In this document: positions 14,291-29,404 of the stretch, piece after piece
Numbering within the stretch: the first letter of the stretch is position 1
Layout: each line of letters starts with the position of its first letter
DNA from: Cyanobacteria bacterium SW_9_44_58
Lineage (GTDB): Bacteria; Cyanobacteriota; Cyanobacteriia; Cyanobacteriales; Rubidibacteraceae
NCBI GenBank assembly: GCA_003021905.1
Contig: PXPI01000083.1
Span: 1-42,567 of the forward strand
Direction: 5' to 3'
Length of the DNA stretch: 42,567 bases
Made by a program: the position numbers and the translations under genes
Notes under the pieces: model-generated
The model's database searches: none
The model's input: the letters and a program-made list of their open reading frames with translations, nothing else
Told to the model about the DNA's origin: nothing

Positions 14291-15445
14291 TTAAGACTCG
14301 GCAAAAACGCGAGTAGCCGCCGCAACTCCTGCGCCGGGGGTCATGGTTTCATGGCCAAGTTCTCGCAAGACTTCTTCTAAAGCACTAATCACTGTTAATA
14401 CATCCCGTTCACTGACAAAGCCCAAGTGACCAATGCGGAAAATCTTGCCTTTGAGTTGATTTTGTCCCCCAGCTAAGGAAATATCAAATTGCTTTTTCAT
14501 CACAGAACGCACTTTTTCTGCTTCCACCGTCGTTGGGGCAACTGCGGTTACGGCCCGACTGGCAGCGTCATTCCCGGCTAATAAGGGCAATCCCAACGCT
14601 TGTACTGCTTCCCGAGTGGCTTTGGTGTTGCGTTCATGACGAGCAAAGATATTTTCCAAGCCCTCTTCTCGCATCATGTTTAGGGCAACTTTTAAGCCAT
14701 ACATGAGATTAATGGGTGGGGTATAGGGGGTGCTATTTTTAGCCGTTGAATTCCGATAAGCGCCGAGGTCAAAGTAGAATTTCGGCAATTTAGCGGTTTC
14801 GTAAGCTTGCCATGCTTTTTCGCTTACGGCAATAAACCCTAAACCCGGGGGAATCATATAGCCTTTCTGAGAACCGGAGGCCACCACATCTAATCCCCAA
14901 TCGTCGATGGGAAGATTCACAGCACCAAGACTGGTGACAGCATCAACGATAATTAATGCTTCGCCATGATTTTTAACGTGGCGATTAATGGTTTCTAAGT
15001 CGTTGAGGATGCCGGTGGACGTTTCAGAATGGGTAATAATAACAGCTTTGATTTCTTTATTGGTATCGGCTTCCAATTTTTCACGGAACACTTTCGGATC
15101 AAGAGGTTCTCCCCATGCGGCGTTGATACGTTCCGTTTGTAAGCCAAAAGCGTCGCTCATATCAGCCCAGCGTTCTGCAAATTTCCCATTGCATCCCACG
15201 AGAACGCGATCGCCGGGACTTAGAAAATTGATAATGCCGGCTTCCATTGCCCCAGTGCCGCTGGCAGTGACGGTTAAAACATCTTGTTGCGTCTGATGCA
15301 ACCATTTTAAGTTTTCGTTGATCTCGCCGATAATTTCGCTAAATTCGGGGCTGCGATGACCTATGGGATGTTGGGCTTGGGCGAGCAGAACTTTTTCCGG
15401 AACCGGCGTCGGTCCAGGAATCATTAGCAGATTTTTGTTTTCCAT
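14291..15445 (-). CDS. Alanine-glyoxylate/serine-pyruvate aminotransferase (class V)
   Basis: A 384-residue PLP enzyme of the class V aminotransferases, expected to transaminate glyoxylate to glycine in photorespiration, and often mislabelled as a soluble hydrogenase 42-kDa subunit in cyanobacteria. Marks are LLMIPGPTPVPEKVL at the start, IGHRSPEFSEI, LTVTASGTGAMEAGI, DAVTSLGAVNLPID (PLP-binding Asp) and SGSQKGYMIPPG with the Schiff-base Lys. The C-terminal FRIGHLGFVSERD also fits. I start at the ATG at 15445 because GGAGA lies 5-9 bases before it; an upstream TTG at 15478 lacks such support. A clear terminator follows, so it is a single-gene unit. Confidence 0.92.
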   Translation of the reverse strand: MENKNLLMIPGPTPVPEKVLLAQAQHPIGHRSPEFSEIIGEINENLKWLHQTQQDVLTVTASGTGAMEAGIINFLSPGDRVLVGCNGKFAERWADMSDAFGLQTERINAAWGEPLDPKVFREKLEADTNKEIKAVIITHSETSTGILNDLETINRHVKNHGEALIIVDAVTSLGAVNLPIDDWGLDVVASGSQKGYMIPPGLGFIAVSEKAWQAYETAKLPKFYFDLGAYRNSTAKNSTPYTPPINLMYGLKVALNMMREEGLENIFARHERNTKATREAVQALGLPLLAGNDAASRAVTAVAPTTVEAEKVRSVMKKQFDISLAGGQNQLKGKIFRIGHLGFVSERDVLTVISALEEVLRELGHETMTPGAGVAAATRVFAES

Positions 15446-15518
15446 AGGGTCTCCTTGATCTCTATCAATAGGTGCCAATCCTCCCTTCCCTGACCAGTTT
15501 CAGTTTTTAGTGTCTTGA

Positions 15519-15561
15519 GTTAGAGAGAGCGCCTTCTTAAACGAAAGGCGGCAACTCTAAC
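15519..15561. repeat. Two-tier palindromic element, copy 1
   Basis: GTTAGAG (15519-15525) pairs with CTCTAAC (15555-15561), and inside it CGCCTT (15530-15535) pairs with AAGGCG (15545-15550) around the loop CTTAAACGA. CGTTGG follows. The same architecture recurs next door and at 27683-27727. Confidence 0.65.
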
Positions 15562-15565
15562 CGTT

Positions 15566-15610
15566 GGTTGCAGATTAGGTTTTCTTAAACAAAAGGCCCC
15601 TCTTGCAACC
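15566..15610. repeat. Two-tier palindromic element, copy 2 (degenerate)
   Basis: GGTTGCA (15566-15572) pairs with TGCAACC (15604-15610); between them TTCTTAAAC-AAAAGGC repeats the loop of copy 1 and CGTTGG follows again. The outer stem differs in sequence from copy 1 yet still pairs, while the inner stem is largely lost. Confidence 0.55.
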
Positions 15611-15695
15611 GTTGGTCAAAACGCGATCAAGATATTCGGTTGGAGTTAGCGTGTTATATTATCTCACCTTATCGACAAATGTTGCAGGGTTGCCG

Positions 15696-15962
15696 TTAAG
15701 AGTGAGGAGAAGAAAATTCATCGGGATTATTGTTGTTCGGCGCAGGATTCAATGACCAACGGTATTCGATGGGATAATTCGTTTGATTGCATATGGATTC
15801 AATATGTTTTTGCTGAGCTTGGGCTTTGCGCAAGGTAACGATGAGTTGCTGCGTTTGCTGACGTAAATTGGGGTTTTGGTCAGTTGCAGTGATGGTTTGT
15901 CGTTCTAATAGTTGTAACAGCAACTCGTAATGGATATGAGAAGGGAGAGGTAACGGTAGCAT
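15696..15962 (-). CDS. Small cyanobacterial protein, probable DUF5340
   Basis: An 88-residue protein starting MLPLPLPSHIHYELLLQLLE and continuing RQTQQLIVTLRKAQAQQKHI and YPIEYRWSLNP. From recall this matches DUF5340, a short helical family seen only in cyanobacteria. The first two thirds are predicted helical and amphipathic (Gln/Leu rich, coiled-coil-like), and the tail is Asn/Pro rich and probably disordered. There is no signal peptide, membrane helix or catalytic motif. It lies between two minus-strand metabolic genes with separate gaps. Function unknown; the family label is moderate. Confidence 0.65.
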   Translation of the reverse strand: MLPLPLPSHIHYELLLQLLERQTITATDQNPNLRQQTQQLIVTLRKAQAQQKHIESICNQTNYPIEYRWSLNPAPNNNNPDEFSSPHS

Positions 15963-16013
15963 AACCAGATTTAGCAGTAGGCGAACAAATCAATGATCCA
16001 AACAGGGGGATTT

Positions 16014-16901
16014 TTATCCATTATATAGGGACGCGATCGCGCTGGCTGGATCGCTGTGAACTAATAATGATTCGCCAATTAAGACGGCATCGGCACCTGC
16101 TTGTTGGACAATTTTTAAATTTTCGGGGGTATGCAATCCGGATTCGCTCACAATTGTGATGTTTTTGGCTTGCAATTGTTCCCGACGTTGATTAATGAGA
16201 TGTGCTGTGGTTTGCAAATCTACCGAAAAGTCTTCTAAGTTGCGATTATTAATGCCGATGAGGCTAATGCCATCAACGGCAAGGGCGCGATCGAGTTCTT
16301 CTAACGTATGCACTTCCACCAGAGGCGTTATGCCCAAGCTATTAATAATTTTCATAAAATAGTTTAAGTCTTGATCACTCAAAATCGCAGCAATGAGTAA
16401 AATGGCATCTGCCCCTATCAACCGGGCTTGATAAATTTGGTAAGGATAAATAATAAATTCCTTGCACAATACCGGTAAATCAACAGCTTCTCTGGCTAAT
16501 CCTAAGTTCTCAAAGCTGCCCTCAAAAAAAGCGGCATCCGTTAACACTGATAAACAGCTTGCCCCAGCTTCTTGATAAGTTTTTGCCAACGCAACCGGAT
16601 CAAAATCGTCTCGAATTACCCCTTTACTCGGGGAAGCTTTTTTAATTTCGGCAATGAGGGCAGGATGACGTTTTTCCTGTTGCAATGCTGTTAAGAAATC
16701 TCTTGCTGGCGGGGCATTTTCCCGCACTTGTTTTCCTAACTTGAGAAAGGGCAATTTTTCCCGTTCCCGATCCACTTCCTTCTCTTTTTGCCAGACAATT
16801 TTTTCTAAAATGTTCTGGGGTTCATCATCGGGAAAGGCAACTTGGTACTGAACAGTATTGACATTAACGGCTGGATTGGGAGGTCGTCTTCTAATTTTCA
16901 T
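16014..16901 (-). CDS. trpC: Indole-3-glycerol phosphate synthase
   Basis: Catalyses ring closure of CdRP to indole-3-glycerol phosphate in tryptophan synthesis. The 295-residue TIM barrel shows [20 protein letters not shown] (catalytic Lys in [10 protein letters not shown], about residue 85), [33 protein letters not shown] (catalytic Lys), ALLIAAIL-type [46 protein letters not shown] and [12 protein letters not shown] 40-residue N-terminal extension ([20 protein letters not shown]) is usual in cyanobacterial TrpC. It lies downstream of lpdA but is separated from it by a strong terminator, so it is probably transcribed on its own. Confidence 0.95.
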
Positions 16902-22092: not shown

Positions 22093-22549
22093 AATTGTAC
22101 AAGTTTTCTTGCTAAGCAATTATTCTGAGTTAAATATAAAGTTTTCTGTAGTAAAGGTTACATTATTAACTGAGATTTTTTATCCTAGAAATATAAGAAA
22201 AGTTGAGATGAAGTTAGCTGTCACTATCAGTTGTTTTGCTGTTTGGGCTGAGAATTCTCTTCTGAAGGAGAACGGCGTCAGGAAGAGATAGGATAGCTGA
22301 CTGATGCAATTACACCTTTGAATCCTAAGTTAGGAAAAAAGGAGTTGGATGAGAGTTATGGGTTTGGGGTTTTTGCCGTTTCCCCCAATTTGCAACTTTG
22401 AAGGGAGTGCGAAACCGCTCATCAGAACAGCCTAACAAAGTTGACCTACTTGGGAACAATAAGTTAAACAACGAACTCCCACCAACTCCTCTTATTTCAG
22501 AATTACTCCTTGCCAAAATCCCACTGAGGAGAATTGGCAGGGAGATTTC
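22093..22549. other. Long intergenic stretch with no recognised gene
   Basis: About 457 bases between convergent genes. I see only short frames without family signatures, and an imperfect stem (CCTTGCCAA about 22508 with TTGGCAGG about 22534) just beyond the pterin dehydratase stop. A stretch around 22380-22440 reads on the minus strand as FRTPFKVANWGKRQ, which feels like a recurrent intergenic sequence, but I cannot identify it. Confidence 0.4.
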
Positions 22550-27658: not shown

Positions 27659-27682
27659 AATCATACATTACCGATGATCAAC

Positions 27683-27727
27683 GGTTAGAACAGGCGCCTT
27701 CCGTCTGTGAAGGCGTAATCTCTAACC
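27683..27727. repeat. Two-tier palindromic element, copy 3
   Basis: GGTTAGA (27683-27689) pairs with TCTAACC (27721-27727), and CGCCTTC (27695-27701) pairs with GAAGGCG (27709-27715). Read on the minus strand it aligns with copy 1 at 15519: TTAGAG, CGCCTT, AAGGCG, TCTAAC, CGTTG in the same order. Confidence 0.65.
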
Positions 27728-27811: not shown

Positions 27812-29404
27812 ATGGACTTAAACACCATTTTGCGCTTACTGGTAACAATTTCTTGTTTCTCTTTAATTGTGCGAGTGATTGTTTCCCGCAATCATTGGGG
27901 ATGGCTAGGAGTTGCCATAGGAATTTTAGCGGTAATGGGAGTTGCCTTATATTGGATTCCCGAACAAGCTGGAATTATTGGCGGGATTTTATGGTTCATT
28001 TTGATTCTAATTCCGCTAATTGGGCTGCGGCAAGTTAATCGGTTTGTTTACCAAGAGCAGTTTCAAAAAGCGCGAAGACTCGCTTCGATTTTATCCTGGC
28101 TGCATCCGACAGATGGGTGGCGAGAAAAACCTCAATTTTTAAAGGTATTAGAACTAACAAAAAAAGGCGAAATCGAAACCGCAAAAAGACAACTAGCCCC
28201 CTACATTCGCTCATCTCAGCATAGCTTTGATTATACGGCAAAAGCGCTGCAGTTCCGTCTAAAATCCCGTTGGAAAGCGTGTTTGCATTGGCTGCAAACC
28301 GATATTCCCCATGCGTTGCTATGGCAAAATCCGACATTGGTTACTGTTTATTTGCGAGCTTTAGGAGAAATTGGCGATATCAATGGTCTAATTTGGACTG
28401 TGAAATCCCATCAAAGCCAAATTCAACGTTTAGGGGATTCAATTGTTATTAACTTGGCTCGCTTGTATGTGTTTGCTTTTTCAGGACAAGTGCAGGAAGT
28501 ACAAAAACTTTTCACCTCAACGTTAACCATTTATCCCCAAAATGTACAAACGTTTTGGCTGGCAACGGCAGAAATGGCTGCTGGCAATCAGCAAAAAGGT
28601 TATCATTTATTATTAACAATTCAAGAAAAAGATGTTAGTTTAGAGACCGCGATCGCGCAACGAGTTTCCCAACCCATTCCGCAAGCCGATGAAAATTTAA
28701 CCATTGAATCGCAACGAATTCTTCATACAATTAAGCAAGATTTACAACAAGAAATCAACTATGGAAGTGCCATTAGTATTGCACCGACTAAGGCTTATTT
28801 AACATATAGTTTAATGGCGGCTAATCTTCTTGTATTTTTCCTGGAAATGCAACAAGGAGGCACACAAAATTTAGAAACACTTTATCGCTTAGGGGCAGCG
28901 GTTCCTGGGGAGATTTTTTCCGGAGAACCTTGGCGTATTTTAACGGCAAATTTCCTTCACTATGGCTATATTCATATTGGCAGCAATCTTTTAGGCCTAT
29001 GGATACTGGGTCCCTATGTAGAATTTTTTTTAGGCGGGATTCGTTATTTAATCGTTTATTTTGTTAGCGGTATGGGGGCCATTTCGTTATTTGCTGTCTT
29101 TGCCATATTTCTGGGACAAGGAAATGAACTGTTGGTTGGCGCTTCCGCAGCGATTATGGGATTAATGGGGGCAACATTTATGATTTTATGGCGAGGATGG
29201 CGTCAGGAACAATCAAAAATTGCACAAGAACGTTTACAATTAGTTGCTTTAATTATCAGCTTGCAGATCCTATTTGATGTCAGCCTTGCTAAGGTAAGTT
29301 TTTTAGGCCATTTTGCGGGTTTGATTTTCGGTATATTATCGACATTTATTATATTATTAATTAACAAAAATAAAAATAAAATTGAAATAATTAATAATCG
29401 TTAA
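27812..29404 (+). CDS. Rhomboid family intramembrane serine protease
   Basis: A 530-residue membrane protein. Residues 1-80 hold two or three hydrophobic helices, residues 85-320 are a soluble helical region with a TPR-like feel (AKRQLAPYIRSSQHSFDYTA, VQKLFTSTLTIYPQNVQTFW), and residues 325-525 are the rhomboid core. The core has GEPWRILTANFLHYGYIHIG followed by SNLL, GASAAIMGLMGA with the catalytic Ser in GASA, and LGHFAGLIFGILS with the catalytic His. It should cleave membrane-spanning substrates. The long N-terminal extension with repeats is larger than in the classical GlpG type. The UvrD-like gene starts 25 bases later and may be co-transcribed. Confidence 0.88.
   Translation: MDLNTILRLLVTISCFSLIVRVIVSRNHWGWLGVAIGILAVMGVALYWIPEQAGIIGGILWFILILIPLIGLRQVNRFVYQEQFQKARRLASILSWLHPTDGWREKPQFLKVLELTKKGEIETAKRQLAPYIRSSQHSFDYTAKALQFRLKSRWKACLHWLQTDIPHALLWQNPTLVTVYLRALGEIGDINGLIWTVKSHQSQIQRLGDSIVINLARLYVFAFSGQVQEVQKLFTSTLTIYPQNVQTFWLATAEMAAGNQQKGYHLLLTIQEKDVSLETAIAQRVSQPIPQADENLTIESQRILHTIKQDLQQEINYGSAISIAPTKAYLTYSLMAANLLVFFLEMQQGGTQNLETLYRLGAAVPGEIFSGEPWRILTANFLHYGYIHIGSNLLGLWILGPYVEFFLGGIRYLIVYFVSGMGAISLFAVFAIFLGQGNELLVGASAAIMGLMGATFMILWRGWRQEQSKIAQERLQLVALIISLQILFDVSLAKVSFLGHFAGLIFGILSTFIILLINKNKNKIEIINNR

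Follow-up and report, generated by a model that had tools for sequence, protein, structure and literature searches.

Three palindromic units in a 42,567-nt contig of Cyanobacteria bacterium SW_9_44_58 (this whole stretch is referred to as the window) are, in our assessment, quite probably copies of a non-autonomous 48-nt mobile DNA element that lies 5' of a GTCA-like site. Units 1 and 2 are arranged head to tail. The initial annotation had described both, with their stems, a shared loop (TTCTTAAAC-AAAGGC) and the flank CCGTTGG, and all of these are present in the sequence; its locations were right, its end points were a few bases off, and the 3' tail CGTTG was overlooked. It had also placed a third unit in the opposite orientation, and this one too is a 48-nt copy, on the minus strand (Table 1).

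The units and their distribution

The outer stem of unit 2 is GTTGCAG/TTGCAAC, and its left arm, GTTG, replaces the target tetranucleotide of unit 1. An indole-3-glycerol phosphate synthase gene and a class-V aminotransferase gene flank the gap that holds the tandem pair, which is downstream of the former and upstream of the latter. Unit 3, whose target-like sequence is ATCA, lies between the gene for ribosomal protein L28 and a rhomboid-family gene. Folding z-scores are -2.35, -1.89 and -4.69 for units 1, 2 and 3, respectively, and -5.41 for the best copy elsewhere in the genome. The window also holds a further cyanobacterial structured element, a match to Rfam CyVA-1 RNA, and HIP1 sites (GCGATCGC) are dense across it and dominate the list of direct repeats.

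Table 1. Units of the 48-nt element and surrounding features in the window (CM, covariance model)
Feature	Position	Strand	Description and evidence
Unit 1	15519-15566	+	48 nt; outer stem GTTAGAG/CTCTAAC; imperfect inner stem around CGCCTTC/GAAAGGCG; 3' tail CGTTG; CM match 61.3 bits, E 6.5e-12; fold
Unit 2	15567-15614	+	48 nt; CM match 63.7 bits, E 1.6e-12
GTCA tetranucleotide	15615-15618	+	Target-like (consensus RGTCAR), at 3' end of tandem pair; base counts, empty sites
Unit 3	27679-27726	-	48 nt; CM match 71.3 bits, E 2.1e-14
Host gap of units 1 and 2	15479-16013	.	Pfam for neighbour genes; synteny and absence in congeners
Class-V aminotransferase gene	14291-15478	-	
Indole-3-glycerol phosphate synthase gene	16014-16901	-	
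Ribosomal protein L28 gene	end 27658		
Rhomboid-family gene	27812-29404		Pfam
CyVA-1 RNA match	22218-22296	+	Rfam, 59.9 bits

Standard copies (n = 129) follow the layout GTYRNAG / ATTA / 7-bp inner stem / 7-8 nt loop / CCTG / CTNYRAC / CGTTG, after which comes the target-like tetranucleotide. The element is thus a 48-nt two-tier hairpin that ends in an unpaired CGTTG and immediately precedes a GTCA-like site. Its outer stem occurs in twelve perfectly complementary versions, including GTCAGAG/CTCTGAC, GTCAAAG/CTTTGAC, GTCGCAG/CTGCGAC, GTCACAG/CTGTGAC, GTTAGAG/CTCTAAC and GTTAAAG/CTTTAAC.

The initial annotation had taken such compensatory changes as the signature of selection for structure. In larger alignments, both of the own genome and of congeners, covariation is indeed strong. 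Pairing holds in 88% of cells of the own-genome alignment versus 36-49% in slid controls, percentages that are biased upward since the alignments were fitted to the model, and the initial MAFFT alignment shows the same pattern. Two-sided changes were counted in 102 cells, versus 38 in shuffles, and the congener alignment agrees. The step from covariation to selection fared less well. For seven loop sequences the reverse complement is present too; TCCTAAACGGA, for instance, occurs 14 times and its inverse TCCGTTTAGGA 9 times, and GAATTTGATTC and GAATCAAATTC occur 4 times each. Moreover, eight copies have palindromic internal loops (ATTA..TAAT or CAGG..CCTG), as if one arm had been copied onto the other. 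These loop inversions and arm copies are traces of hairpin template switching, and they give paired changes without selection. Because template switching in a hairpin keeps stems paired, paired changes alone are no proof of RNA selection.

The initial annotation had suggested a CM search of the genome and its relatives. With a CM built from 22 own-genome copies and a cut-off of E<=0.01, we obtained 55 matches in the 2.94-Mb genome (best E 1.5e-16), a few of which are opposite-strand echoes of the palindrome, for a count of about 50 copies. Earlier, narrower searches of this genome had given two further places (loop pattern) and about 25 clear copies (DNA search). By CM search, congeners hold 3 to 61 copies each; another genus of the family has 24, and a Myxosarcina MAG has 22. 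Chance is excluded, since in the same search, against 55 own-genome matches, 30 of the 31 genomes belonging to other families of the order had none. Under stricter settings, the element was present in 5 of 388 genomes sampled from the class and in 32 of 389 sampled from the order (11 of 149 genera, in four families). Carriers identified by exact pattern include Halothece, Myxosarcina, Hyella, Lyngbya aestuarii, Pleurocapsales and Xenococcaceae records; hosts are mostly salt-loving cyanobacteria, and the spread is patchy. Viral contigs gave no exact pattern match. Rfam 15 gave no match at the window units (gathering threshold) or in five loci (E<=0.1), and we found no account of the 48-nt repeat in the available literature, whether queried by sequence string or by topic. 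With some 50 dispersed copies, these results support the earlier suggestion of an undescribed cyanobacterial interspersed palindrome.

Insertion sites and empty alleles

The site 3' of the element fits RGTCAR in 69 of the 129 copies; deviations occur at the C in 25 and at the G in 19, and GTCA is not universal. Five congeners lack the element in the gaps syntenic to both window sites (synteny plus CM check); synteny is clear there, but the gaps are too diverged to fix the exact base. Elsewhere, filled and empty alleles could be aligned exactly. A copy in genome G005 lies inside an aldehyde/xanthine-dehydrogenase-type (XDH-type) gene (Pfam MoCoBD domains) whose orthologues in G001, G000 and G002 do not carry it, the filled sequence CCTCGGAGTCA[..]GTTGGTCAAAC of G005 standing against the empty CCTCGTAGTCAAAC of G001. 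A Uma2 gene (also by protein alignment) and a CobW-like gene, the latter named from sequence with no Pfam match, differ from their homologues by exactly 48 nt. At locus L149, an internal gene duplication holds a filled and an empty version together, and the empty copy reads AGTCAAAAC.

Empty alleles carry a single GTCA, and filled alleles carry GTC(A) on both sides, a junction that tandem units share. Changes in the left GTC, which is within the stem, are matched by changes in the right arm (GTCA/TGAC, GTTA/TAAC, GTCG/CGAC, GTTG/CAAC), whereas most copies keep GTCA as their right-hand tetranucleotide. We therefore read the right GTCA as target and the left GTC as element. In the Uma2 case the right-hand sequence is GTAA, which is consistent with this reading without proving it.

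A 109-nt version with one identical extra hairpin in its loop was found at three unrelated loci (L174 999-1107, L175 995-1103 and L176 999-1107). Because the same inserted hairpin is present at all three, this version must itself have been copied as a unit. Other repeats adjoin the element at some loci. A sister palindrome, GTCATCCGTACTCC...GGAGCCTGCGGATGACCGTTGG, has the same tail and stands head to tail with the element (L159, about 940-1000; L138; L081). A further repeat (CGGTACACYGGACTTTGAGTCC...) abuts it at two G005 loci with different left flanks (L166 from 1057; L168 from 1056).

Copies inside genes

Genes are strongly avoided as insertion sites, though not absolutely. When a frame was required to run open across the element and for at least 40 codons beyond it on each side, 22 of 173 pooled copies qualified, compared with 413 of 669 nearby control positions; the pooled set includes a few echo-strand picks (e.g. 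window 15515-15563), which makes for a small count error and under-counts tandems. Among forward-oriented intragenic copies, 13 of 16 are in a single, usually stop-free phase. This phase encodes S-x-R-L-R-L-P-K-R-x-A-P-A-x-T-V-G-Q, giving a peptide like SHRLRLPKREAPAVTVG.

Comparison with homologues identified exact 16-codon (48-nt) in-frame insertions in the XDH-type, CobW-like and Uma2 genes. Carrier genes include those for Uma2, a cytochrome P450, an XDH-type subunit, a POTRA-domain protein and a cNMP-binding/AAA protein. The XDH insert lies where the best solved-structure match (5y6q) is shorter, and an AlphaFold model of the Uma2 carrier, at a mean pLDDT of 49.7, was too poor for use. Judging by sequence, one interrupted frame may be the toxin gene, of HicA type, in a toxin-antitoxin pair. 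In-frame insertion into genes and a conserved peptide, by which coding palindromes of the Rickettsia palindromic element kind are recognized, were thus both found. Host proteins may tolerate the inserted peptide.

Mechanism and relation to known repeats

The asymmetric internal loop ATTA/CCTG is kept in 83 of the 129 copies, which span several families and include Halothece, Lyngbya, Hyella and Xenococcaceae records. Its retention suggests that it is needed for something, most simply for a putative recognition step. A mobilizing enzyme acting in trans may recognize the folded single strand through this internal loop and the unpaired CGTTG tail. Such an enzyme would most likely cut and join one DNA strand, and the element would be joined beside GTCA without a long target duplication. 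The left end of the element resembles the target, and a second copy landing there would create a tandem. A length of 48 nt (16 codons) and one stop-free frame would allow some gene insertions to survive as an added peptide; most others would be purged, leaving most copies between genes. Near-identical copies in G005 suggest that the mobilizing enzyme was recently active. Only the anatomy of the element guides our preference for single-strand joining over an RNA route or a double-strand transposase that leaves a short duplication. A bolder proposal, which we hold tentatively and as more doubtful than the element itself, is that this hairpin, which would rank with the smallest transposable units known, depends for its movement in trans to GTCA on a kind of enzyme with which no such repeat has so far been connected, and that its length in whole codons and its single open frame have been shaped for gene entry as a ready-made 16-residue insert.

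Other accounts were weighed against these data. The presence of GTC(A) on either side of filled sites, with a single copy in empty ones, would also suit a MITE-like element whose double-strand (DDE) transposase duplicates a short stretch of target, GTC or GTCA. Yet the left GTC covaries within the stem while the right GTCA is mostly fixed, so they need not both derive from a single target. Apart from a 5-nt tail present on just one side, little of the element lies outside the palindrome, and no related insertion sequence was found beside copies; homology clustering of 707 translated neighbouring frames gave no recurrent transposase there. We consider this account unlikely. Spread through an RNA intermediate, as an SDR-type small dispersed repeat, seems less probable still. 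The Nostoc SDRs of Elhai and colleagues (2008) are said to be cyanobacterial mobile repeats of 21-27 nt with secondary structure, compensatory changes and nesting. Our element is likewise a very small, structured cyanobacterial mobile repeat with compensatory changes and nested or tandem insertions, but its 48-nt unit is about twice the reported SDR length, its hosts are different, and homology clustering reveals neither a reverse transcriptase nor an intron family that recurs near copies. To our knowledge, in-frame gene insertion has not been described for SDRs. Strong covariation and mostly intergenic copies could also be expected of a conserved small RNA or mRNA control hairpin under RNA-structure selection, and the initial annotation had raised a small RNA module. 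The copies, however, are lineage-specific insertions at unrelated loci, in both orientations and some inside open frames. They are not conserved at orthologous places in congeners and have no Rfam match, and loop inversions and arm copying provide a mutational source of covariation. We regard an RNA function of this kind as highly improbable, and the small RNA suggestion is not supported.

The two-tier hairpin, unpaired end and sequence-specific site resemble those of REPs, as would befit a REP/REPIN family mobilized by RAYT or IS200/IS605 TnpA. TnpA-type genes are common in the genus, and RAYT-like genes exist in carriers, although a protein search of eight carriers matched G001 and G026 only. 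No RAYT-like match was obtained in G000 or G005, with about 50-60 copies each, or in G002, G003, G004 and G006. A CM scan of 30 Y1 loci found no credible copy within 1.5 kb of any, G007 and G008 have Y1 genes without the element, and the copies show no GTAG/GGAG or CGTC tag. The RAYT/IS200 link is not supported by the Y1 family search, the CM scan or the RAYT protein search, and mobilization of this kind appears improbable to us. Two RAYT-like proteins (L100 1219-1758, minus strand; L295 1168-1710, plus strand), from a Myxosarcina MAG and G001, are not flanked by the element. Integron attC sites were rejected by inspection: the GTTRRRY-like stem ends point the wrong way, and the copies are not in cassette arrays.

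As a mobile 48-nt hairpin, our preferred reading, the element belongs among the small palindromic mobile repeats, and the family is apparently undescribed. In-frame coding palindromes are best known from Rickettsia. The Rickettsia palindromic elements form in-frame fusions and measure about 150 bp (PMC10969869); two of them, RPE-4 and RPE-6, have been classed as CGTC REPs (PMC3733652). Like these, the cyanobacterial element is a dispersed palindrome that inserts in frame into unrelated genes and adds a conserved peptide. By description it is set apart by its 48 nt, its two stems split by ATTA/CCTG, its GTCA-like site and its host phylum.

REPs are short imperfect palindromes, mostly intergenic and in some cases intragenic, with GTAG types reported in cyanobacteria; CGTC REPs have a CGTC tag, an 8-9 bp stem, a 4-5 nt loop and a CCA-like tail (PMC3733652). 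The element shares with GTAG and CGTC REPs a short imperfect palindrome, a mostly intergenic location and an unpaired motif at one end. Unlike GTAG REPs, 129 aligned 55-nt copies show a 3' foot of CGTTG then GTCA and a 5' foot that is mostly R, with no GTAG/GGAG, and unlike GTAG REP/REPINs, no RAYT gene is flanked by the element. It differs from CGTC REPs in having CGTT rather than CGTC, 7+7 bp stems with internal loops and a 7-8 nt loop. It also forms head-to-tail tandems, which are absent, under-represented or negligible among REPs (PMC3733652). As for IS200/IS605 elements and their RAYT relatives (PMC6006769), its anatomy suggests hairpin recognition and site-specific insertion; in contrast to them, it encodes no enzyme and consists of a single hairpin, and we found no enzyme gene whose ends match it.

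The element also carries a warning for other small repeats, in which paired stem changes can stem from hairpin template switching rather than RNA selection. Its exact empty alleles, defined site and defined unit length make movement and protein effect testable. Set beside the Rickettsia elements, it represents an independent and apparently recent case of a coding palindrome, in free-living cyanobacteria.
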